Assembly (NCBI GenBank): GCA_029269725.1
Contig: JARJHS010000006.1
Location: 1 to 64,000, forward strand
Direction: 5' to 3'
Origin: Pollutibacter soli
GTDB lineage: Bacteria > Bacteroidota > Bacteroidia > Chitinophagales > Chitinophagaceae
Length of the DNA stretch: 64,000 nucleotides
Shown: piece by piece, positions 10,621-61,382 of the stretch
How the letters are laid out: the number at the start of each line of letters is the position of its first letter
Numbering within the stretch: the stretch's first letter is position 1
Program-made: the position numbers and the translations under genes
Notes under the pieces: model-generated
The model's input: the letters and a program-made list of their open reading frames with translations, nothing else
The model's database searches: none
What the model was told of the DNA's origin: nothing

Positions 10621-12813
10621 ATGCAGTCTCTTCGTTTCAAAGCAATCGACAACCTGACAACATCCGAGCCCGGAGTAAATGTTGAAGGTGCCCCAAAAAT
10701 CACCGGTATTTTCGGTGAGAATGTTTTCACGCTTAAGACCGCCCGTGAATTTTTGAGTGATGAAGCTTATAAAAGCCTCGCTGCTTCAACAAAAACCGGT
10801 CATAAAATTGAACGAAATCTTGCCAACCAGATAGCTGCAGGGATGCGCCAATGGGCCGAAACTAAAGGAGTTACGCACTTCACCCACTGGTTTCAGCCTT
10901 TAACTGGTACTTCCGCTGAAAAACACGATTCATTTTTCACATTGAAATCTGACGGTACCGCTTTAGATACCTTCGATGGTGATGCATTGGTTCAGCAGGA
11001 ACCAGATGCATCTTCATTCCCAAGCGGTGGGTTACGTGCAACATTTGAAGCACGTGGATATACTGCATGGGATCCGACATCACCGGCATTCATCATGCAC
11101 ATCGGTCAGGGTCTTACGCTGTGTATCCCTACAATCTTCGTTTCATACACAGGGGAATCACTGGATTACAAGGCGCCGTTAATCAAATCGATCGAATCTT
11201 TGAACAAAGCTGCTGTTGATGTATGTCACTATTTTGATCGTAACGTAAGTAAAGTATACGCTACACTCGGATGGGAACAGGAGTATTTTGTTGTCGATGA
11301 GGGATTGGCCAATGCACGCCCGGATATCGTAATGACCGGCCGCACTGTTTTCGGTCATACGCCAGCGAAAGGACAGCAGATGGAAGATCACTATTTCGGA
11401 TCAATTCCTGAAAGGGTATATGCATTCATGCGCGACTTCGAATATGAATCCTATCGCCTGGGTATTCCTCTCCGTACGCGTCACAACGAGGTGGCACCTT
11501 CACAGTTTGAGTGCGCCCCTATTTTCGAAGAACTGAACCTTGCTGTTGATCACAATACACTATTGATGGACGTGATGAGCCGCGTTGCCAAGCGTCACCA
11601 GCTGAAAGTATTGTTGCACGAGAAACCTTTTGCAGGAATCAACGGAAGTGGTAAACATAATAACTGGAGCCTTGCTACAGATACCGGTGTTAACCTGCTG
11701 GCGCCTGGCAAAACTCCGAAGACTAACCTGATGTTCCTTGCATTTTTCGTAAACACCATCAAAGCTGTTTATGATCATGCTGATCTTCTCCGTGCGGCTA
11801 TCGCTTCTGCCGGTAATGATCACCGTCTGGGTGCAAACGAAGCTCCGCCTGCAATCATTTCTGCATATATCGGGCAATACCTGTATAAAGTTCTCGACGA
11901 AGTGGAAAGCCGCGTTGGTGACAAATTCGATGAGCAGGATGAAGTGATGCTGAAGCTGGATATCCATAAAAGCATTCCTGAACTGCTGCTCGATAATACC
12001 GACCGTAACCGTACTTCACCTTTTGCCTTTACTGGTAATAAGTTTGAGTTCCGTGCAGTAGGGTCAAATGCTAACTGCGCAAATGGAATGATCATTCTGA
12101 ATACCATTATGGCGGAAACATTGTCAAACTTTAAGAAAGAAGTTGACAGCCTGATTGAGAAAGGTGACAAGAAAGAAGTTGCCATCATGCAGGTAATCAA
12201 AAAATACATTAAGGATAGTAAGAAGGTACTGTTCGAAGGGGATGGATACAGCGAAGAATGGCAGAAAGAAGCTGCAAAGCGCGGATTGCCAAACCTGAAA
12301 ACAACACCGGTTGCTCTTGATCCCCTGATAACCAAGAAGGCAAAAGATCTGTTTGAAAAACACAACGTGTATTCGCATTCAGAACTCGAGGCACGGCATG
12401 AAATTGAACTGGAGAAATACGTAAAAACAGTTCAGATTGAAGGTCGTGTAATCGGTGACCTGGCAGGCAACCATATCATTCCCGCTGCTATTCGTTATCA
12501 GAATGTACTCATCGCGAATATCAAAGGTTTGAAAGATATCGGCGTCAAAGCAGAAGCATATGCTGCACAGCTGGAGATCCTCAATGCCATTTCAGAGCAT
12601 CTGAACAAGGTAAAGAGTCTTGCTGAAGATATGACCGAAGCCCGCAAAGCTGCAAATGCGCTGACTGATACACGCGAGAAAGCAATTGCGTACTGCGATA
12701 AAGTAAAACCTTTCTTCGACGAGATCCGTTATCATGTCGACAAGCTCGAATTGCTTGTTGATGATACCGAATGGGAACTTCCGAAGTATCGTGAACTGTT
12801 ATTCTTGCGTTAA
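10621..12813 (+). CDS. glnN: Glutamine synthetase type III
   Basis: 730 residues, the length of GSIII and much longer than GSI or GSII. It makes glutamine from glutamate, ammonia and ATP. Typical GSIII segments are visible: the N-terminal extension (ENVFTLKTAREFLSDEAYK), the core metal-binding region GWEQEYFVVDE near residue 220, the ATP and glutamate sites with FAGINGSGKHNNWS near 340, and NRTSPFAFTGNKFEFRAVGS near 463. This type is standard in Bacteroidota. It is a single-gene unit; 7-bp repeats begin at its TAA stop (12811-12813) and a strong terminator follows at 12912-12950. Confidence 0.97.
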   Translation: MQSLRFKAIDNLTTSEPGVNVEGAPKITGIFGENVFTLKTAREFLSDEAYKSLAASTKTGHKIERNLANQIAAGMRQWAETKGVTHFTHWFQPLTGTSAEKHDSFFTLKSDGTALDTFDGDALVQQEPDASSFPSGGLRATFEARGYTAWDPTSPAFIMHIGQGLTLCIPTIFVSYTGESLDYKAPLIKSIESLNKAAVDVCHYFDRNVSKVYATLGWEQEYFVVDEGLANARPDIVMTGRTVFGHTPAKGQQMEDHYFGSIPERVYAFMRDFEYESYRLGIPLRTRHNEVAPSQFECAPIFEELNLAVDHNTLLMDVMSRVAKRHQLKVLLHEKPFAGINGSGKHNNWSLATDTGVNLLAPGKTPKTNLMFLAFFVNTIKAVYDHADLLRAAIASAGNDHRLGANEAPPAIISAYIGQYLYKVLDEVESRVGDKFDEQDEVMLKLDIHKSIPELLLDNTDRNRTSPFAFTGNKFEFRAVGSNANCANGMIILNTIMAETLSNFKKEVDSLIEKGDKKEVAIMQVIKKYIKDSKKVLFEGDGYSEEWQKEAAKRGLPNLKTTPVALDPLITKKAKDLFEKHNVYSHSELEARHEIELEKYVKTVQIEGRVIGDLAGNHIIPAAIRYQNVLIANIKGLKDIGVKAEAYAAQLEILNAISEHLNKVKSLAEDMTEARKAANALTDTREKAIAYCDKVKPFFDEIRYHVDKLELLVDDTEWELPKYRELLFLR

Positions 12814-12853
12814 ACGTAAAACGTATAACGTTAAACGTAAAACGTAGAACGTG
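12812..12853. repeat. Heptamer-phased repeat (AACGTN type) after glnN
   Basis: Six units in exact 7-bp register, for example AAACGTA twice, then TAACGTT. It starts inside the glnN stop codon. The same pattern recurs at 13123, 17610, 18012, 19023 and 25604. Confidence 0.85.
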
Positions 12854-16416: not shown

Positions 16417-16465
16417 AATCGTTGTTCGTTGATCGTTTTTCGTTGTTCGTTGTTCATTGTTCGTT
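16417..16465. repeat. Heptamer-phased repeat (TCGTT type)
   Basis: Seven units in exact 7-bp register, such as AATCGTT, GTTCGTT and GATCGTT, starting 4 nt after the stop of the preceding gene. It differs in base composition from the AACGTT type but has the same period. Confidence 0.8.
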
Positions 16466-16681: not shown

Positions 16682-17611
16682 ATGAAAGTTACTGTTGTTG
16701 GAGCCGGCGCTGTTGGTGCGACTACTGCAGACAATATCGCCCGTGCTGCTCTCTGCCAGGAATTGGTTCTTTTGGATATCAAAGAAGGCCTTGCGGAAGG
16801 GAAAGCCCAGGATATGATGCAGACAGCTGCTCTTCTCGGGTTTGATACCCGTATCACAGGAAGTACAAATGATTATTCTAAAACGGCAGGCAGTTCTGTG
16901 GTTGTTATTACTTCAGGTATTCCACGTAAACCAGGAATGACACGGGAAGAACTGATCGGCACCAATGCAGGAATTGTTAAAGGCGTTTGCGAAAATATTC
17001 TCAAATATTCTCCTGATGCAATTATCATCGTGATCAGCAATCCGATGGATACCATGACTTACCTCGCATTGCAGTCAACAGGTCTTCCAAAAAACAGGAT
17101 CATTGGCATGGGTGGTACGCTCGACAGCAGCCGCTTTAAATACCAATTAAGTCAACACCTCGGATGCAGCCCATCTGATCTGAATGCAGTTGTTGTGGGT
17201 GGTCATGGAGATACAACGATGATTCCGTTGATTCGTCTCGCTACATGGAACAGTGTACCGGTCACAAAATTCTTAAGCGAAGATCAACAGAAACAGATTG
17301 TTGCTGATACAATGGTAGGCGGAGCGACCCTTACCAAACTGATTGGCACATCTGCATGGTATGCCCCAGGTGCTGCAGGAGCTGCATTGGTTGAAAGTAT
17401 TGTCAGAGATGAAAAGAAATTGTTCACCTGTTGCGTATCGCTCGAAGGTGAGTATGGCCAGAAGGATATTTGTCTCGGCGTGCCAGTTACTATTGGTAAA
17501 AACGGCTGGGAAAAAATCCTGGATTTTGATCTGAACGAAGAAGAAAAAAGTCTCTTCAATAAGAGTGCGGAAGCAGTTCGTACAATGAATGATGTTTTAA
17601 AAACACTCTAA
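16682..17611 (+). CDS. mdh: Malate dehydrogenase (LDH-like type)
   Basis: 309 residues from the ATG at 16682; an upstream frame extension to 16619 is not family-like. It interconverts malate and oxaloacetate with NAD in the TCA cycle. The nucleotide loop is GAGAVGA (7-13), the substrate arginines are Arg82, Arg88 and Arg151, and the catalytic His175 is in GGHGD. Arg82 at the specificity position points to malate rather than lactate. It is a single-gene unit; a heptamer repeat starts at the stop codon and a terminator follows. Confidence 0.97.
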   Translation: MKVTVVGAGAVGATTADNIARAALCQELVLLDIKEGLAEGKAQDMMQTAALLGFDTRITGSTNDYSKTAGSSVVVITSGIPRKPGMTREELIGTNAGIVKGVCENILKYSPDAIIIVISNPMDTMTYLALQSTGLPKNRIIGMGGTLDSSRFKYQLSQHLGCSPSDLNAVVVGGHGDTTMIPLIRLATWNSVPVTKFLSEDQQKQIVADTMVGGATLTKLIGTSAWYAPGAAGAALVESIVRDEKKLFTCCVSLEGEYGQKDICLGVPVTIGKNGWEKILDFDLNEEEKSLFNKSAEAVRTMNDVLKTL

Positions 17612-17650
17612 ACGTTTAACGTTCAACGTGAAACGTTTAACGTAAAACGG
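17610..17650. repeat. Heptamer-phased repeat after mdh
   Basis: Six units in exact 7-bp register (AAACGTT, TAACGTT, CAACGTG and similar), beginning inside the mdh stop codon and ending in the terminator stem. Confidence 0.85.
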
Positions 17651-17732: not shown

Positions 17733-18020
17733 ATGACAAGATACTTCGACTCACCGTTGAAAGTGACCGGCATTCTATTAACCTTTGCCGGATTCATTTC
17801 AGCTTTTATCAGCCTTCATCCTTCACTTCCGGAAAGCTACATGATCTCCCTTGTCGGAGTTCTGGTTTTTCTCACAGCAGATGCACTTACCCATACATCA
17901 CTGACATTCAAATGGAGAAGATTTTTTGAAGTCGGGTTGATTGTAATAATAGTAGTCTCCACGATTTTATTGACGATGGACTTTTATGGAATGATCACGT
18001 TGAGGCACTTTCAACGTTGA
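17733..18020 (+). CDS. Small membrane protein, unknown
   Basis: 95 residues from the ATG at 17733 (MTRYFDSPLKVTG). Three hydrophobic segments are visible: GILLTFAGFISAFISL, MISLVGVLVFLTADAL and VGLIVIIVVSTILL. No family was recognised. The last residues (HFQR and stop) are encoded by the first unit of a heptamer repeat (18012-18046), so the natural end of the gene may have been altered by repeat invasion. The next gene is convergent, with its stop only 4 bp away. Confidence 0.6.
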   Translation: MTRYFDSPLKVTGILLTFAGFISAFISLHPSLPESYMISLVGVLVFLTADALTHTSLTFKWRRFFEVGLIVIIVVSTILLTMDFYGMITLRHFQR

Positions 18021-18046
18021 ACGTTTAACGTTGAACGTTGAAAGTA
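18012..18046. repeat. Heptamer-phased repeat forming two convergent gene ends
   Basis: Five units in 7-bp register (CAACGTT, GAACGTT, TAACGTT, GAACGTT, GAAAGTA). It encodes the C-terminus and stop of both the small membrane protein (plus) and the GT9 gene (minus). Confidence 0.85.
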
Positions 18047-19023: not shown

Positions 19024-19070
19024 GACGTTAAACGTTGAACGTTAAACGTTAAAGTTCAACGCTCAACGTA
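19023..19070. repeat. Heptamer-phased repeat between GT9 and MFS genes
   Basis: Seven units, nearly all 7 bp (one is 6), such as AAACGTT, GAACGTT and CAACGTA. It fills the whole 32-bp spacer and encodes the last residues and stop of the MFS gene. Confidence 0.8.
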
Positions 19071-25603: not shown

Positions 25604-25683
25604 ATACGTTATACGTTTTACGTTTTACGTTCAACGTTATACCCTGTAAAGTTCACTTTCAACTTTATACTTTAAACTTTCAC
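25604..25683. repeat. Heptamer-phased repeat reaching the E1 stop codon
   Basis: Five units of ATACGTT / TTACGTT / CAACGTT, then a second flavour read on the minus strand as AAAGTTN units running up to and through the E1 stop codon (25680-25682). Confidence 0.8.
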
Positions 25684-49546: not shown

Positions 49547-50929
49547 TTGAAGTCGAAATTCTCTTATGCGATCATAGTTTTTGTGGTTTCACTGGCGACG
49601 CTGGTGATCCTATCACTAACATTTCAACGTCGCATAAACGAACTACTCAAACTGTCGCATAGCGAAGAACAATCCAATAAGATCATTATAGAACTTAATC
49701 GCCTCGAACATTTTATTAAGGAAGCAGAATCAGGGCAAAGAGGTTTTCTACTTACGGGTGATAGCAGTTTTCTCGAACCGTACATATATTATTCAAAACA
49801 GGTTTATCCGGCTACGGAGAAAATCCAGGAGCTGACTGAAGACGACATCAACACCCAGATCAAAGTAACGCAGCTCAGAGGCTACATCAGCAGGCGTATG
49901 GAGTCAATGCATTTTTCACTTCAATCATTTGATCAGGGCGATAGTATTTTGAGGGGTAACCTGCATCGGGGTAAAGTCCTGATGGACACCTGTCATATGT
50001 TAATAAGGCAGATTGAAGATGAGCAGGATAGCCTTTTAAGTAAGACCAGTGGCAGTAAAAACATACTTGAGTCAAAAACGCCGGAAAATTTCAGACATCT
50101 TTTTCTTGTATCACTTTCTCTCCTGCTGATCACATTTGCTTTAATTATGCGTGAAATTGTTCAGCGTTCCCGATTCCAGCGGGATTTACAGGCGAATATT
50201 ATCGAACTGAATCAAACCTATGAAGAACTTCAGCAGATCACCTTTATCACATCACATGATTTCCAGGAACCGCTTAGAAAAATACGAATTCTGAGTTCCC
50301 GGCTGGTTGAAAATCACGGGGATGCAGAAGGAAAGATGATCATCGACAGGATACAGGTGGCTGCGACAAGGATACAGGAACTGATACAGGAGGCTGTACA
50401 ATACATGGCGCTTTCACGAACCACCGAAGGCATGACTGAATTCAATCTTACTTCTGTGGTGAACGAAGCGGTGAACGACATGATTGATCATCCTGTGCTG
50501 AAGAAGGCGGATATTAAAATCAATTTGTCGGTTACAATATTGGGTTTTCGATCTCAGCTGAGGTTGCTGTTTAAGTCGCTTATTGATAATGCCATAAAAT
50601 ATGCTCATGAAGATCGCAATCTTCAATTGAGTATAACAGGTACGGTAACAGATAATAATAAACAGGATGAGCATGGAATTCTGCAGACCAGTTATTATAA
50701 AGTAAGTGTTGCTGACAACGGTATTGGCTTCGAACAGGAATTCAGTAAAAAGATATTTCAGCTTTTTAAAAGATTGCAGACTGCAGAGACAGCCCCGGAC
50801 GGGAAAGGTGTAGGCCTGGCGCTCGCAGAAAAAATAATGGTCAATCACAAAGGATATATTCTTGCGGAGGGAAAGCCTGGAGCGGGTGCTACCTTCCACC
50901 TTTATTTCCCGATCAGATCCCACCGTTGA
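49547..50929 (+). CDS. CHASE3 histidine kinase
   Basis: 460 residues from a TTG start at 49547 (MKSKFSYAIIVFVV). A first membrane segment (7-25), an extracytoplasmic CHASE3 domain (about 40-170; EAESGQRGFLLTGDSSFL), a second membrane segment (about 186-204), a short coil, HisKA with His237 in TSHDFQEPLRKI, and HATPase (KSLIDNAIKYAHEDR; VGLALAEKI). No partner response regulator is fused; a stand-alone receiver (51496-51927) lies downstream and could be its partner (inference). Confidence 0.9.
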   Translation: MKSKFSYAIIVFVVSLATLVILSLTFQRRINELLKLSHSEEQSNKIIIELNRLEHFIKEAESGQRGFLLTGDSSFLEPYIYYSKQVYPATEKIQELTEDDINTQIKVTQLRGYISRRMESMHFSLQSFDQGDSILRGNLHRGKVLMDTCHMLIRQIEDEQDSLLSKTSGSKNILESKTPENFRHLFLVSLSLLLITFALIMREIVQRSRFQRDLQANIIELNQTYEELQQITFITSHDFQEPLRKIRILSSRLVENHGDAEGKMIIDRIQVAATRIQELIQEAVQYMALSRTTEGMTEFNLTSVVNEAVNDMIDHPVLKKADIKINLSVTILGFRSQLRLLFKSLIDNAIKYAHEDRNLQLSITGTVTDNNKQDEHGILQTSYYKVSVADNGIGFEQEFSKKIFQLFKRLQTAETAPDGKGVGLALAEKIMVNHKGYILAEGKPGAGATFHLYFPIRSHR

Positions 50930-53044: not shown

Positions 53045-54325
53045 TCAATCTTCTACTCGAGCCCTCGTGGGAACTTCAGCAGCTACCGAATTATAAACCG
53101 GAAATGAAAGGATGAAGGTGGCGCCTTTATTCACCGCACTTCTCGCTGAAATAAACCCTTTATGCTGCTCGAGTATTTTTTTGCATAGCGCGAGGCCGAT
53201 TCCTGTACCCTGGTATTCCGGCCCCTGGTGCAGGCGGGAAAACATGGCAAAGATTTTTTCCGCATACTGCTGTTCAAAGCCAAGGCCATTGTCCCGTATA
53301 TAAATCCTGCAGTATTTACCAATTTGATTTTCATCACCATTTTCATTGAGCTCCAACATCTCCGAACTGATGCTTATTTCAGGCCGAACATCCTTGCGAC
53401 TATACTTCAACGCATTGCTTAACAGGTTTTGAAACAGGGGATACATCAATCCCTGGATGAGATTCAACTTCGGAATTTCACCAACAGTAATAACAGCTTT
53501 TTTCTCAACAATCTGATCATCAAGTTCAGAAAGAATCTCTTTGATCACGCTGTTAACATCTGTTTCTTCAAGCGGATTGTTATCGAAACTAATTTTTGAA
53601 AATGTGAGAATATCTTCAATCAGCGCCTGCATACGGGCACCCGAATTCTGAATTCTGTTGATAAACATCTGCCCCTCTTCGTCTAGCCTGTCCCGGTATT
53701 TAATAGAAAGCCGGTCACAGAACATCCTGATTTTTCGTAGCGGTTCCTGCAAATCATGGGAGGCCATGAACGCAAACCTGTCCAGTTCGGTATTAGCCGC
53801 TTCCAACCTTCCGATATATTCAAGCAACTGGTGATTGAGTTCATTAACTTTCTCTTCAGAAGCCTTTCGTTCTGAAATTTCCTCTTCAAGATTTTTATTG
53901 ATGATGGACATCCGGCGCTCCTGCTCACGCAATTGCCTGTTCTTACGATACAGATCGACGAAAACGCCGACTTTAGTTCTCAGCAATGCAGGATTTACAG
54001 GCTTGTAAATATAATCGACTGCTCCTGACCGATAGCCTTTGAACATATTCTCATCACCATAATTATTTGCGGTAATAAATATGATCGGGATGTGGCGCAG
54101 TCGCTCCCTTTCATAGATAAGGGTAGCGGTGTCAAATCCGTTCAGATTCGGCATATTTACATCCATCAGGATCAATGCGAAATCAAACTGATTCAACAAT
54201 ATTTTCAACGCTTCACGCCCCGAACGGGCTTTTACACATTGGTAACCGTCAGGTTCAAGGGTAAGCTCTATGGACATCAGGTTATCTTCCCTGTCATCCA
54301 CAAGAAGAATTTTATCCTGTATCAA
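53045..54325 (-). CDS. REC-histidine kinase
   Basis: 426 residues. N-terminal receiver (phospho-Asp55 in LILMDVNMPN), a coiled-coil linker (about 128-175), HisKA with His190 in ASHDLQEPLRKI, and HATPase (FQNLLSNALKYSRKD; GTGIGLALCKKI). Soluble. Starts 6 bp after the giant kinase stop, so the pair is probably one operon, with the receiver of this protein a likely acceptor from the giant kinase (inference). Confidence 0.92.
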   Translation of the reverse strand: MIQDKILLVDDREDNLMSIELTLEPDGYQCVKARSGREALKILLNQFDFALILMDVNMPNLNGFDTATLIYERERLRHIPIIFITANNYGDENMFKGYRSGAVDYIYKPVNPALLRTKVGVFVDLYRKNRQLREQERRMSIINKNLEEEISERKASEEKVNELNHQLLEYIGRLEAANTELDRFAFMASHDLQEPLRKIRMFCDRLSIKYRDRLDEEGQMFINRIQNSGARMQALIEDILTFSKISFDNNPLEETDVNSVIKEILSELDDQIVEKKAVITVGEIPKLNLIQGLMYPLFQNLLSNALKYSRKDVRPEISISSEMLELNENGDENQIGKYCRIYIRDNGLGFEQQYAEKIFAMFSRLHQGPEYQGTGIGLALCKKILEQHKGFISARSAVNKGATFILSFPVYNSVAAEVPTRARVED

Positions 54326-54331
54326 AATATA

Positions 54332-57300
54332 TTATTTATAGAACCATACGCGCATCAGAGACAATAACTGATCCACTTTCAATGGTTTGGTAATATAATC
54401 TGAAGCACCTGCTTCGATACATTTCTGCCTGTCGCCTTTCATTGCCTTTGCAGTGACCGCAATGATCGGGAGTGAACTGTTTTTATGTTCTCTCCTGATC
54501 TTCTGCATCGTTTCATATCCATCCATCTCAGGCATCATAATATCCATCAACACCATATCCACTTTTTGCTTGTCATTATTCAGAATGGAAATCGCTTCTT
54601 TTCCACTTTCGGCCGTTATTACATTCATGTTATAACGTTCAAAAACGGTTGTAAGTGCGAAGAGATTTCTTACATCATCATCAACAACCAACACATTCAT
54701 ACCAATCAGAATATCTTCTTTTCTCCTCAGATTTTCAATGAGCTTCTGCTTCTCAGGAGCAAGGTCACTGTAATTGATATGCATCTGCAACACCGCTTCT
54801 TCAAGCAGGTACTCAATTGAATTCACCCCTTTCGCAACTACAGCATTGCTGTGATGGTTGAGCTGAATCCATTCATTCTTATTGAAATCCTTTGCTGAAT
54901 AAACAATCACTGGCGTATTACTCTTTTTACCTGCAGCTATCTGCCCCAGGAGTTGCTCACCCGGGATATCCGGCAGTGTATAATCAAGAATGATACAATC
55001 GTACTCTTCTTCCGTCAACTGTTTCAACGCTTTATTTCCAGTATCGGTAATTGTTATATCGATATTCTCTTCCTTTAGCAATTGCGCAATCTGTGATGAT
55101 TCAATCTCATTATCTTCCACGACAAGAACATTGCGCTTCTGTTTGTTACGCAAAGAAATAATATCATCAAACAAATCATCCAAAGCTTCATTGGTTAGCG
55201 GCTTCATCAGAAAACTTCTTGCGCCTCTCTTCATTGCCAGGCTCTTATTTTCTTCACCTGAAATCAAATGAATCGGAATATGACGATAGTTAAGATCATT
55301 GCGTAGAAGGTCAAGCACTTTCCAACCACTGGTGTCCGGAAGTTTTACATCAAGCGTTACAGCTACCGGATTGAACCTGTTTATGAAATCAAAAACATCA
55401 AAATAACTGACAGCAATAACCGCTTTTAATCCGCGCTCATGCGCTTTATCTACAATGATCTTACCGAAACGAAGATCATCTTCAACGATCAGTATTACAC
55501 CGTCACCTGGTTGAATATTACTTCTGTCGTCACCGGTTTCATTGATCATTTCATTCACCTGCCCCATCGTGCGCCCGTCTTTCGCTTCAGCAGTAAGCCT
55601 GTTGAGCAAAGTATTGATATCGCCGTCGCCCTGGCTTAAACTATGAGCAACACTTCCTTCTTTTTGTAAAGGAAGATGCTGAATGGTTTCTGTTACAGAA
55701 CTTAATGGCACAAAGAGTGTGAACGTACTACCCTCTCCCGGAATTGATTCCAGTTCGATTGTACCGCCAAGCAGTTCTGCAAGGCCGCGACTGATGGAAA
55801 GTCCAAGACCGGTGCCACCATATTTACGACTCGTTGAACCTTCCGCCTGCTGGAATGCCTCAAAAATAATGTTCTGTTTGTCCTGCGGAATTCCGATACC
55901 CGTATCCGTTATCGAAAATGCAACCACTTTCTGTGCCTGGTCAAGCGAATGAATGCCTGGTTTCCATCCTTTATCTGCTGCGAAAATTCTGAGCTTCACC
56001 TCACCTTTCTCGGTAAACTTGAATGAATTCGAAAGCAGATTCTTTAAGATCTGGTTGAGACGCTGCAAATCCGTATGCATTATATCCGGCAATTGCTGAT
56101 CGGTATCAATACTAAACCGGAGATGTCTTGCTTCTGCGATCGGCTTGAATGTGGTTTCCACAAACGAAGCAATTTCGAAAAATTTGACCGGTGAAATATT
56201 CGTGGAAATAAATCCGGATTCGATCTTCGAAAGATCGAGAATATCATTGATCAGCTGAATAAGGTCATCACCACAGGAGTGAATCGTTTTCGCATAGCGG
56301 ATCTGTTTTTCCGTAAGGTTTCCTTCGGCATTGATGTACAGCTGTTGCGCAAGGATCAGCAATGAGTTCAGGGGTGTACGCAACTCATGGGACATGTTTG
56401 CAAGGAACTCTGACTTATACTTGGACGTTAGTGTCAGCTGTTCTGCCTTTTCTTCAAGCGATCTCCTGGCTTCTTCTACCTCTTTGTTTTTCGCTTCTAC
56501 CTCATTTTTCTGTTTTACCAGCAGCAAAGCTTTATCCTGGAGCTCATCATTTGTTCTGCGCAGCTCTTCCTGCTGAATCTTGAGCTCACCAGCCAGAGAT
56601 TGTGATTGTGCAAGAAGTTCTTCTGTTCTTGTATTTGCTTCAATTGTATTCAACACGATTCCGATACTCTCTGTAAGCTGACTGATGAAAGCCAGATGCG
56701 TCATGCTGAAAGATTCCAGTGAAGCCAGTTCAATAACGGCCTTCACTTTATTTTCAAACAACACCGGTTCAACAATGAGGTTGGCTGGAGATGCACTTCC
56801 GAGACCTGAGTTGATTTTGATGTAATTGTCAGGCACATTGGTAAGCATGATACGTTCTTTTTCAAGTGCGCACTGCCCCACCAAACCTTCGCCGATACCA
56901 AACTCCAGCGGGATATTTTTGCTTGCCCTATACGCATAGGAAGCAAACAACGTCAGTTTGAATTTCTGTGTCTCATCATCCTGTCGGAGAATGTAGAATG
57001 CACCGTGGTGAGCATTTACTACCTGTGCAAGCTCTGAAAGAATTTTTTGTGTTACTGTCTGCAGATCTTTTTGTCCCTGCAGCATCTGGCCAAATTTCGC
57101 GAGGTTGGATTTCAGCCAGTCCTGTTCCTGGTTCCGCAAAGTGGTTTCACGCAGGTTGGTGATCATCTGGTTGATGGTATCTTTCAACGCTTCCACTTCA
57201 CCTTTCGCTTCCACGCGTATATTTCGTGTAAGGTCACCTTTCGTTACCGCGGATGCCACTTCAGAAATTGAACGTACCTGCGTTGTAAGATTTTGGGCCA

Positions 57301-60300
57301 GCTGGTTTACGTTCTCCGTAAGGTTTTTCCAGATACCGGACGCACCAGGTACACTCGCCTGCCCCCCCAGTTTTCCTTCAACTCCTACCTCACGCGCAAC
57401 CGTTGTTACCTGGTCAGCGAACACCGCGAGAGTTTCAATCATTTCATTGATCGTGTCCGTAAGCTGAGCCACCTCACCTTTAGCCTGGATAGAAAGTTTC
57501 TGACGAAGATTACCTGTTGCCACTGATGTTACCACCTTCGCAATACCACGCACCTGGCTGGTCAGGTTACTGGCCATCATGTTCACGGAGTCTGTCAGAT
57601 CTTTCCATGTACCTGCAACACCGCGTACTTCAGCCTGGCCGCCGAGCTTACCTTCAGTACCAACTTCACGGGCCACACGTGTTACTTCAAACGCAAATGA
57701 GTTCAGTTGCTCCACCATCGTATTGATGGTATTTTTCAGATCAAGAATTTCACCTTGTACATCGATCGCCACTGTTTTTGAAAGGTCACCTGAAGCCACC
57801 GCCTTGGTCACCTCTGCGATATTACGCACCTGCGCCGTAAGGTTTCCTGTCATCTGGTTCACAGAGTCAGTCAGATCTTTCCATGTGCCTGCTACACCTG
57901 GTACGAATGCCTGACCTCCGAGTTTACCGTCGGTACCTACTTCACGCGCCACACGTGTAACCTCCGATGCAAATGCACGCAGCTGATCCACCATCGTATT
58001 GAGTGTTTCTTTCAGCATCAGGATTTCACCACGCACATCCACTGTAATTTTTTTGGACATATCACCATTAGCAACCGCGATGGCCACTTCGGCGATGTTA
58101 CGTACCTGTGCGGTAAGGTTACCTGCCATCTGGTTTACAGAGTCTGTCAGATCTTTCCATGTACCTGCCACACCCGGTACGAACGCCTGACCACCCAGTT
58201 TACCATCTGTACCTACCTCACGCGCAACACGTGTTACTTCTGATGCAAAACCGCGGAGCTGATCCACCATCGTATTGATCGTGTTTTTCAACTCGAGGAT
58301 TTCACCTTTTACATCCACTGCAATTTTTCTCGACAAATCACCATTCGCAACAGCTGTAGTTACCTCAGCGATGTTACGTACCTGTGATGTCAGGTTACTC
58401 GCCATTTTATTTACACTCTCGGTAAGATCTTTCCATGTACCACCAACACCTGGCACATCGGCCTGGCCACCCAATTTTCCTTCGGAACCTACCTCACGCG
58501 CCACACGTGTAACCTCGGAACCGAAGGAATTGAGCTGATCCACCATCGTATTGATCGTGTTTTTCAACTCAAGGATCTCTCCTTTTACATCCACCGTAAT
58601 TTTTCTTGACAAGTCACCTTTCGCAACCGCCGTCGTTACCTCGGCGATGTTACGTACCTGACCGGTAAGGTTACTCGCCATTCCATTCACACTATCCGTA
58701 AGATCTTTCCATACACCGCCAACACCTTCTACTTCCGCCTGGCCTCCAAGCTTACCTTCTGACCCTACCTCACGCGCAACACGCGTCACCTCAGATGCAA
58801 AACCACGGAGCTGATCCACCATCGTATTGATTGTGTTTTTTAACTCGAGGATCTCTCCTTTTACATCCACATCAATCTTACGGGAAAGGTCACCTGTAGC
58901 TACCGCAGTGGTTACCTCTGCGATATTTCGCACCTGGCTGGTAAGGTTACTCGCCATTTTATTTACACTGTCTGTCAGATCTTTCCAGGTACCACCTACA
59001 CCCGGTACTACGGCCTGGCCTCCAAGCTTACCTTCTGACCCTACCTCACGCGCAACACGTGTTACTTCAGAACCAAAAGAATTGAGCTGATCCACCATCG
59101 TGTTGATCGTGTTTTTCAACTCAAGGATTTCTCCTTTTACATCCACCGTAATTTTCCTGGATAAGTCACCCTTTGCCACGGCAGTCGTTACCTCTGCGAT
59201 GTTACGTACCTGGCCGGTAAGGTTACTGGCCATCTGGTTAACAGAATCCGTAAGGTCTTTCCACGTTCCCGCAACACCTTTTACATTCGCCTGTCCACCA
59301 AGTTTACCTTCTGTACCTACTTCAAGAGCCACACGGGTAACCTCACTCGAAAATGAATTGAGCTGATCCACCATCGTATTGATCGTGTTCTTCAACTCAA
59401 GGATCTCTCCTTTAACATCTACTGTAATCTTTCTCGACAAGTCACCTTTCGCCACCGCTGTAGTTACCTCTGCAATATTTCGTACCTGGGCAGTAAGGTT
59501 ACTACCCATCTGGTTCACTGAATCAGTAAGATCTTTCCATATACCGGCAACACCCTCCACCGTTGCCTGACCACCAAGTTTACCTTCGGAACCCACTTCA
59601 CGTGCCACACGCGTCACTTCCGATCCGAATGAATTCAGCTGATCCACCATCGTGTTGATCGTATCCTTCAATTCCTGGATCTCTCCTTTTACGACCACAG
59701 TAATTTTTCTTGACAAGTCACCTTTCGCAACCGCTGTAGTTACTTCAGCGATGTTACGCACCTGGCCCGTAAGGTTACTCGCCATCTGGTTCACAGAATC
59801 CGTAAGATCTTTCCATGTACCCGCAACACCACGTACCTGTGCCTGTCCGCCAAGTTTACCTTCTGTACCTACTTCGAGCGCCACACGGGTAACCTCACTC
59901 GAAAATGAGTTGAGCTGATCCACCATGGTGTTGATCGTATTTTTCAACTCGAGGATCTCTCCCTTCACATCTACTGTAATCTTTTTTGAAAGGTCGCCCT
60001 TCGCCACTGCCGTTGTTACCTCTGCAATATTTCGAACCTGGGCAGTCAGATTACTACCCATCTGGTTTACTGAATCTGTAAGATCTTTCCACACTCCAGC
60101 CACACCTTTTACTTTCGCCTGACCACCAAGTTTACCTTCGGAACCCACTTCACGCGCAACACGTGTTACCTCCATGGAAAACAGATTCAACTGTTTCACC
60201 ATGTCATTTACCTCTTTTGCAATAGTCGAGAATTCACCCTGAAGGCTGTTTCCGCCAATCTTCAATGGCATCTGTTCCGAAAGGTTACCCTGCGCCACCG

Positions 60301-60754
60301 AACTGATTACATTCGCAATCTCAAGAATGGGATTCACAAGATCGGAGATCAGTTCGTTCAGCGATTCAATACCTGCACTCCAGGCTCCTTTGGTATTTGA
60401 TATTTCTATTCGCTGTGTGAGCTTTCCCTGCTTTCCGATGATATCACCCGCTTTCGTAAAATTCATCATCATCGCTTCATTCAGCAGAATGATTTCATTC
60501 AACGTATCGCAGATCTTGCCGGTCAACCCTGTCTTATCATAAGGCATGCGTACATTAAAATTACCATTGCGTATTTCCATAAGTACGGCTAACAGTTCAC
60601 GATAGTCGAGCTGATTGGAAAGACCTTCCGAAACTTCATCGCGGATGGCAGATGTTGCAATAACTTTTGACTGATTTACCTTTCTTCGAGCGGGAGATTT
60701 TTTCCCTGGGGCCGGGCCGTTCAGGATAGCGGAACCTGATTTCTTACTGCTCAT
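54332..60754 (-). CDS. Giant soluble poly-HAMP hybrid histidine kinase, fungal Nik1-like
   Basis: 2140 residues, no membrane segment. N-terminal unique region with two HAMP-like pieces (about 45-185), then an 11-unit array of 92-residue repeats (about 185-1195), each holding a canonical HAMP ([20 protein letters not shown]) and a divergent one ([19 protein letters not shown]). A GAF domain follows (about 1225-1390), a coiled coil, HisKA with His1456 in [10 protein letters not shown], HATPase (about 1550-1690), and three receivers starting near 1758, 1875 and 2018. The repeat sequence is very close to that of fungal group III osmosensing kinases, which carry five or six such units. Likely an osmotic or envelope stress sensor (inference). 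Confidence 0.93.
57170..60205. repeat. Eleven tandem 276-bp HAMP repeats
   Basis: DNA repeats inside the giant kinase gene in exact 276-bp phase; the anchor coding GKLGGQA lies at about 60121 in unit 1 and 57361 in unit 11, ten intervals of 276 with no indel. Units alternate in type, giving a two-unit (552-bp) higher-order period. Ends are approximate. Confidence 0.85.
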
Positions 60755-60977: not shown

Positions 60978-61382
60978 TTACAAAGGAGATATCAATACAT
61001 TATTAATACTTTTTGCAAATTCAAGAAGTGCGTTGTAGTTAATGGGCTTTACGAAATAACTATCTGCACCAAGTTTTATGCAATCCTGAACTTCAGTCTC
61101 GTTTTTTGTCGTGGAAAAAACGACAATATGAACATTTTTAAAATTATTGTTACTCCGGAGTTCCTTTAAAACTTCCAACCCGGTTTTCCGGGGCATATTG
61201 AGATCAAGGATGATTACGCCCGGATTCTCAGATTTGTCAAGACGCTGAAGAAACTCAGTCAACTCTTCACCGTTTGACACAAACTTTACTTTACCGGTGA
61301 ACCCGATTTCCTGAAATGCCGTTTCAAGCAAAAGCTTGTCATCTGCATCATCGTCTGCAATCAGAATAAACGAGTTTCGCAT
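60978..61382 (-). CDS. Single-domain response regulator
   Basis: 134 residues, a receiver with ADDDADD (9-15), phospho-Asp60 in VIILDLNMP, and FSTTKNE and FVKPIN for the switch residues. Paralogue of the 51496-51927 receiver (same DADD plus TAFQE pattern). Upstream of the giant kinase on the same strand (223-bp gap) and a plausible phosphorelay partner. Confidence 0.92.
   Translation of the reverse strand: MRNSFILIADDDADDKLLLETAFQEIGFTGKVKFVSNGEELTEFLQRLDKSENPGVIILDLNMPRKTGLEVLKELRSNNNFKNVHIVVFSTTKNETEVQDCIKLGADSYFVKPINYNALLEFAKSINNVLISPL

Follow-up and report, generated by a model that had tools for sequence, protein, structure and literature searches.

A poly-HAMP hybrid histidine kinase is encoded on the reverse strand at positions 54332 to 60754 of the window (the whole stretch of 64,000 nucleotides analysed here), in one open frame of 2140 amino acids that begins with ATG. 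Pfam placed 11 HAMP stretches, a GAF domain, HisKA, HATPase and three receiver stretches on this protein, and all the features given below lie on the same strand. Its N-terminal tail (residues 1 to 48, 60611 to 60754), with 9 K/R against 3 D/E in residues 1 to 44, precedes a cap (residues 49 to 185, 60200 to 60610) in which the sequence and the AlphaFold helix spacing suggest three HAMP-like elements. Then comes the array of 11 units of 276 bp or 92 amino acids (residues 186 to 1197, 57164 to 60199), delimited by TRF, a motif and a position matrix and followed by GAF (PF13185, residues 1229 to 1368, 56651 to 57070, E 2.4e-18), HisKA (residues 1447 to 1514, 56213 to 56416) with the phospho-acceptor H1456, located by Pfam and motif, and HATPase_c (residues 1562 to 1685, 55700 to 56071, Pfam). 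Three receivers, found by Pfam, close the protein at 55169 to 55495, 54782 to 55129 (the ends of these two are approximate and set by motifs) and 54356 to 54694 (residues 2021 to 2133, confirmed by motifs). On inspection of the sequence, the motifs around H1456 and at the Asp and Lys positions of the receivers are intact; they are read here in their customary sense. No membrane helix was found in the kinase, its top 19-residue Kyte-Doolittle mean being 1.36 against 2.72 in the positive control, a CHASE3 kinase at 49547 to 50929 of the same window. Frame, Pfam, hydropathy and spacing thus confirm what an earlier note on this DNA had described: a soluble kinase of 2140 residues with 11 repeats of 92 residues, a GAF domain, a kinase core and three receivers. 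The gene is genuine, looks intact and encodes a large signalling kinase from a bacterial family that is known and widespread.

The regularity of the array was seen in three ways. The motif GKLGGQA occurs 11 times, exactly 92 residues apart throughout; TRF reports a 276-bp array at 57548 to 60172 (score 2509), the other nine of its 10 rows all having periods of at most 21; and a position matrix, built partly from these same 11 units, recovers 11 units of at least 216 bits each, all at a distance of 92 residues. The unit can be divided into two halves, the longer being VDQLNSF...VNQM and the shorter ...INTM; their alignment is in register and weak (hhalign probability only 8%, P 0.0011), and the best Pfam HAMP stretches fall on the second half. 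In an AlphaFold model of residues 36 to 337 (44 sequences, mean pLDDT 65), whose confidence is limited to the first 160 residues or so (the cap with the beginning of unit 1), the array units scoring mostly below 60, long helices begin every 45 to 49 residues, as in concatenated HAMPs. The top three Foldseek matches of this model were poly-HAMP structures of Aer2 (probability 0.92 to 0.99, E 0.12 to 0.39), and no match of the model had an E value of 0.001 or less. PDB entries 9trk and 9trj (histidine kinase,Gcn4p), both fragments, the former a solved N-terminal one, are collinear with residues 15 to 318 and 15 to 238 (E 4e-114 and 2e-66, respectively); no paper on them was among the matches listed in topic-based literature searches. 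A sequence scan showed the DExG motif to be missing from residues 1 to 1215. This motif of membrane HAMPs is absent in poly-HAMPs as described in PMC3570549, and the concatenated HAMPs of Aer2 of Pseudomonas aeruginosa (3LNR, 4I3M, 4I44) likewise go without it. Unlike the window kinase, Aer2 is a chemoreceptor with five HAMPs, a haem PAS domain and no kinase core. The earlier note had counted one HAMP per 92-residue unit; given the halves in register, the helix spacing and the description of CaNik1p repeats as HAMP pairs of 92 residues (PMC3848655), the unit most likely comprises two. On these grounds and on the match to 9trk/9trj, we infer about 25 HAMPs in the front half of the protein, 22 in the 11 units and three in residues 49 to 185, a count based on pattern, a partial model and literature.

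Six bases downstream of the poly-HAMP gene lies a gene for a receiver and histidine kinase of 426 amino acids (53045 to 54325, Pfam), the partner kinase, and a single-domain response regulator (60978 to 61382, Pfam) is placed upstream, all three genes being in the same orientation. The poly-HAMP gene of the congener is adjoined by a single-domain regulator that is 75% identical. Among the 76 relatives testable for the downstream gene, with 5 further loci standing outside this count, a receiver-kinase follows directly in 23, from five phyla and 16 of them Bacteroidota, which is a lower bound; the same search found none directly downstream in the other 53. The Rhizobium partner is a kinase with two receivers. 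The best PDB match of the partner kinase of the window was 8f71 (E 3e-43), and LvrB was also among its matches (E 2e-14). The same genome carries a paralogue (C35:199711-202988) in which Pfam identified CHASE3, GAF, a kinase and three receivers, with a hydrophobic stretch after CHASE3 and a single HAMP below threshold (20.9 against the Pfam cut-off of 25 bits). This paralogue (L002, L005) is 44% identical to residues 1385 to 2139 of the poly-HAMP kinase and is neighboured by a kinase that shares 42% identity with the kinase region of the partner at 53045 to 54325. Since its output half matches those residues, the array stands in place of a membrane sensor. Contig C35 also bears, at about 33 to 166 kb, dozens of short kinase or receiver matches, nearly all on one strand, over some 130 kb. 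The first half of the window contains short tandem arrays of 7-bp units, most with CGTT or CGTA, at 12808-12852, 16419-16465, 17610-17649, 18013-18042, 19025-19069 and 25604-25642.

Concerning a signal, no conserved metabolic neighbours pointing to one were identified among 16 Bacteroidota loci and the window; the families present in at least three of these were regulators or kinases, frames antisense to these, and two genes common to three Chitinophaga loci. On three Rhizobium plasmids (L108, L110 and L111) treZ, of trehalose synthesis, comes after the poly-HAMP gene and the receiver-kinase gene, with a toxin-antitoxin pair between receiver-kinase and treZ in L108. The treZ genes are a possible hint at osmotic stress.

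The kinase belongs to the bacterial poly-HAMP hybrid kinases, termed group III-like in PMC7643160, together with AskA (MXAN_0712), AskB (MXAN_6735) and Amb07 of Sorangium cellulosum, which according to the same text likewise have a long membrane-free N-terminal poly-HAMP region, a kinase and several receivers. Traits of the Ask type that are found here are more than five N-terminal HAMPs, no transmembrane region, HisKA and HATPase, and several receivers. The presence of a receiver-containing second kinase immediately downstream is common to askB-askC and the window, as a shared trait and not as a definition; askC encodes such a kinase directly downstream of askB, and PMC7643160 also describes binding of AskA receiver 3 to the AskC receiver and DNA binding of AskB in vitro. 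SpoIIID-like matches on the HAMP units are another point in common, described for the Ask kinases (PMC7643160) and found in the window kinase. The SpoIIID, RHH_6, WXG100_2 and GatB_Yqey matches on the units at 57164 to 60199 passed the Pfam cut-off for the whole protein with no single stretch passing it, and we set them aside as likely repeat artefacts; they bear on the DNA-binding reading of the Ask kinases. The Ask kinases (Myxococcus xanthus) and Amb07 come from a different phylum, and their roles in development or ambruticin sensing need not apply here. In all these cases AskA, AskB, AskC and Nik1 were likened to the window genes by way of their published descriptions. LvrA and LvrB of Leptospira offer a likeness for the partner, LvrB being a receiver-controlled kinase for which a mechanism is given in PMC13269768; the abstract of that paper mentions no poly-HAMP array in either protein, and the NCBIfam LvrA model scored 197 bits on the kinase half against a cut-off of 1200.

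The bacterial family is a closer comparison than the fungal Nik1 that the earlier note had invoked. Fungal group III kinases (Nik1/Os-1, CaNik1p, TcsC, Bos1) are also membrane-free hybrid kinases with N-terminal HAMP pairs of 92 residues, and the window kinase shares this repeat, firmly as to spacing and weakly as to pairing. They carry five to six repeats, with nine HAMPs in CaNik1p (PMC3848655 and PMC3418262), against 11 repeats in the window kinase, which has three receivers and a GAF domain in place of their single receiver. The analogy with Nik1 therefore stands through the repeat, and membership in its group fails on repeat number and on the single receiver. Kinases of the Nik1 group act on the HOG pathway and answer to osmotic stress and fludioxonil. 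To our knowledge, Nik1 has no GAF domain and bacteria have no HOG pathway.

Relatives are numerous and widely spread. A search of genome contigs gave 590 candidate stretches among the matches listed, of which 589 were relatives (thus at least 589); the best 80 of these were kept for unit counts, and together with the congener they span eleven named phyla, with three Myxococcota relatives (L019, L039, L058) among the 80. Matches at E 1e-100 were found in 213 of 72,556 plasmid records, and an even phylum sample matched at E 1e-150 in 12 of 392 genomes, own genome included. Close to home the gene is patchy: at E 1e-100 only 2 of 60 genomes matched, the own one among them, and the second (G033, 95% identity) is one among 36 other genomes of the genus. 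Next to its main frame, one relative (L074) carries another, short poly-HAMP frame with a single spacing of 65 residues between units.

The unit spacing is nearly invariant across these proteins, and the repeat number differs by whole units. In 82 proteins, 769 of the 770 distances between neighbouring units were of 92 residues, the lone exception spanning unknown bases. The 81 relatives counted (L010-L090) had 11 units in 33 cases, 10 in 16, 12 in 7, 9 in 6, 8 in 5, 14 in 4, 7 in 4, 13 in 3, 6 in 2 and 5 in 1; several of them, the shortest included, are truncated where a contig or frame ends, and relatives without visible contig-end cuts have 6 to 14 units. The counts in the best 80 are biased, because the ranking of these loci reflects their similarity to a query with 11 units. 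Less biased is the evenly drawn phylum sample, in which five genes had 11 units, two had 10, two had 9 and three had 8; one of the two 10-unit genes, in a genome of the same family (G428; L095/L105), is broken by one TAG. Repeat number was constant in six of the seven genera with at least two loci, namely Streptomyces (8/8 with 10), Bradyrhizobium (8/8 with 11), Chitinophaga (4/4 with 10), Flavobacterium (3/3 with 11), Candidatus Sulfotelmatobacter (2/2 with 11) and the own genus (2/2 with 11), Nostoc being the varying one with two loci of 11 and 12 units. Within the phylum sample, genus code g41 gave 2/2 with 11 and g47 3/3 with 8, although these codes may overlap the named genera. Sixty plasmid rows taken from all along the ranking included 21 Rhizobium records with a one-piece match to residues 50 to 2140, all of 6207 to 6213 bp, some of them probably near-duplicates; a shorter match of R. 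beringeri (H24), split in two and 4962 bp long, probably represents a paralogue. Six Rhizobium loci comprised four with 11 units, one with 10 and a single doubled spacing (553 bases), and one with only two scoring units, 2750 bases apart; frame changes were present in three of the six. PMC4603909 reports a poly-HAMP tract that differs in length between the MXAN_6735 orthologues of M. xanthus and M. fulvus. The change in copy number anticipated by the earlier note was thus borne out as whole-unit differences between genera and was not seen in most of the genera looked at. A number that varies among close strains, as expected of a contingency locus, was not found in six of the seven genera, in G033 or in the 21 Rhizobium records.

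The units themselves are far from the near-identity once claimed for them, since their DNA identity is 58 to 86% and the longest exact tract shared by two of them is 47 bp. Third-position identity is about 53% between neighbouring units and averages 54% over units 1 to 9, compared with 49 to 65% between the gene and that of the congener and 41% for random codons. As third positions differ among units about as much as from the congener, the array is not a recent expansion. The alternation of residues quoted in support of growth by pair duplication is present in units 1 to 7 and does not extend across the whole array. In units 1 to 7, amino-acid identity at lag 2 exceeded that at lag 1 (exact permutation P 0.017), with no such excess for DNA (P 0.125) or third positions (P 0.29), and over all 11 units lag 2 was not above lag 1 (P 0.37); units 1 to 7, and later 2 to 7, were picked post hoc, after the last four had been seen to differ. 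Pooling six related arrays, which share ancestry, gave a lag-2 excess with P 0.005. Across 70 arrays with at least nine units, lag 2 exceeded lag 1 at P <0.05 in 3 (DNA) and 4 (protein), about what chance would give. Pair duplication is nominally favoured by the protein signal in units 1 to 7 and by the grouping of units 2 and 4 in a unit tree, common to the window and its one congener (support 100/99), but as a general rule of growth it is weak and post hoc, being at chance level over the 70 arrays, and we reject it. What the earlier note had named as contrary to its view, no pair structure with a fixed repeat number, was half found. Gene conversion within the array was rejected as well: the 47-bp tract common to units 5 and 6 is longer than expected from codon shuffling with column preferences preserved (3/500), and the tracts shared at lags 2 to 6 are not; a plain codon shuffle is exceeded by those of lags 1 to 4.

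The strongest new statement from this work is that the number of repeats and the end units persist and that the middle units lose their correspondence between genera. A DNA tree was built from the 66 units of six arrays with 11 units each, the window included and the bootstrap not fully settled; in it, units 1, 8, 9, 10 and 11 each form one side of a branch (unit 1 with support 90/98), and units 2 to 7 need four to six changes each. The best matches in 30 ordered pairs of these arrays agree: unit 1 (59924 to 60199) and units 8 to 11 (57164 to 58267) kept their position in 30/30, and units 2 to 7 (58268 to 59923), which have no one-to-one correspondence among the six relatives, in 30 to 67%. 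The 12-unit MAG arrays and the 10-unit Chitinophaga arrays also resemble the window array at their two ends and diverge from it in between. For arrays of one and the same genus (Bradyrhizobium, Streptomyces, Chitinophaga or Flavobacterium), by comparison, 82 to 100% of the best matches fell on the same position for every unit. Lineage-specific clusters of units were seen in L012 and in the window with its congener, which argues for some true exchange, and the third-position identity of 49 to 65% even against the congener means that the loss of signal in units 2 to 7 may partly be saturation. Lineage-specific homogenisation, supported in these two lineages, accounts for part of the lost correspondence of the inner units, and saturation may account for part. 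Among the matches listed in our searches, no literature on the repeat evolution of HAMP arrays was on point.

The protein is probably, in our judgement, a soluble hybrid kinase of the AskA/AskB type in which a dimeric rod of stacked HAMPs relays a cytoplasmic cue to the kinase, its receivers and the partner kinase. In the dimer, the first 1200 residues would make up a parallel rod in which about 25 HAMP bundles, alternately of two types, are stacked; it would be about 60 nm long by our estimate, if each HAMP adds 2.5 nm. A cue acting on the N-terminal cap, the rod or GAF would shift the stack between two HAMP conformers, and the change would pass from the last HAMP via GAF and then residues 1369 to 1446, probably a coiled coil, to H1456. 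The three receivers would then take up the phosphate and hand it on to the partner kinase (53045 to 54325) at its receiver; this kinase would be switched in the manner of Rec-controlled kinases such as LvrB, and the single-domain regulator upstream would perhaps also receive phosphate. As one unit equals two HAMPs, the gain or loss of a unit would leave helix register and conformer parity unchanged. By analogy with CaNik1p, in which removal of all HAMPs activates Hog1 according to PMC3848655, the resting array probably restrains kinase output. The likeliest cue, by analogy with Nik1 and Ask, would be osmotic or small-molecule stress. A further proposal, which we think rather unlikely, is that array length is itself the selected trait and the roughly 25 HAMPs an allosteric rod of fixed length with specialised ends and interchangeable inner units, which recombination homogenises or replaces by whole di-HAMPs while their number stays the same.

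Three other readings were weighed against the relay. The array could be mainly a scaffold or ruler, a rod that tethers or spaces kinases, for instance on the nucleoid through its basic tail, with little signalling along it. A unit number steadier than unit identity would suit such a role, as would the DNA binding of AskB noted above (PMC7643160) and the nucleoid position of FrzCD, a cytoplasmic di-HAMP receptor (PMC12077210). Tails with a net charge of +3 or more were found in 26 of the 62 relatives (out of 81) with a usable N-terminus, the start being taken as the first ATG or else another start, against 3.4% of internal windows of the same length, an excess that is probably overstated because the controls were internal and not N-termini of unrelated proteins. 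However, the other 36 tails fall below +3, those of cyanobacteria and one of Rhizobium are short or acidic, and the alignment shows unit columns conserved more strongly than a spacer would seem to require, so that we consider a scaffold unlikely. Quite improbable is a second reading, in which GAF is the only true sensor and the array a passive dimerisation stalk. GAF does adjoin the kinase and is retained in the CHASE3 paralogue, yet exact spacing over eleven phyla and position-specific end units suggest more than a stalk, and HAMP deletion alters the output of CaNik1p (PMC3848655). That the array is a contingency locus, whose units recombine to vary their number within a population and tune the sensor in this way, is hardly credible, for in spite of the 6 to 14 units among relatives, the two Nostoc loci and the Myxococcus tract difference, number is constant in six of seven genera and in span over the 21 Rhizobium records, the units differ by 14 to 42% in DNA, and nearly every unit keeps its position within four genera.

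The family bears on the questions of what stacked HAMPs do and why some kinases have two dozen of them. It offers naturally occurring arrays in which about 6 to 14 units are exactly spaced, from eleven phyla, as a ready set for chimera and unit-deletion tests, to which the paralogue of the same genome, with the same kind of output and a membrane sensor, and the recurring partner kinase may be added. Such tests would address whether the number, the parity or the identity of HAMPs carries the signal.
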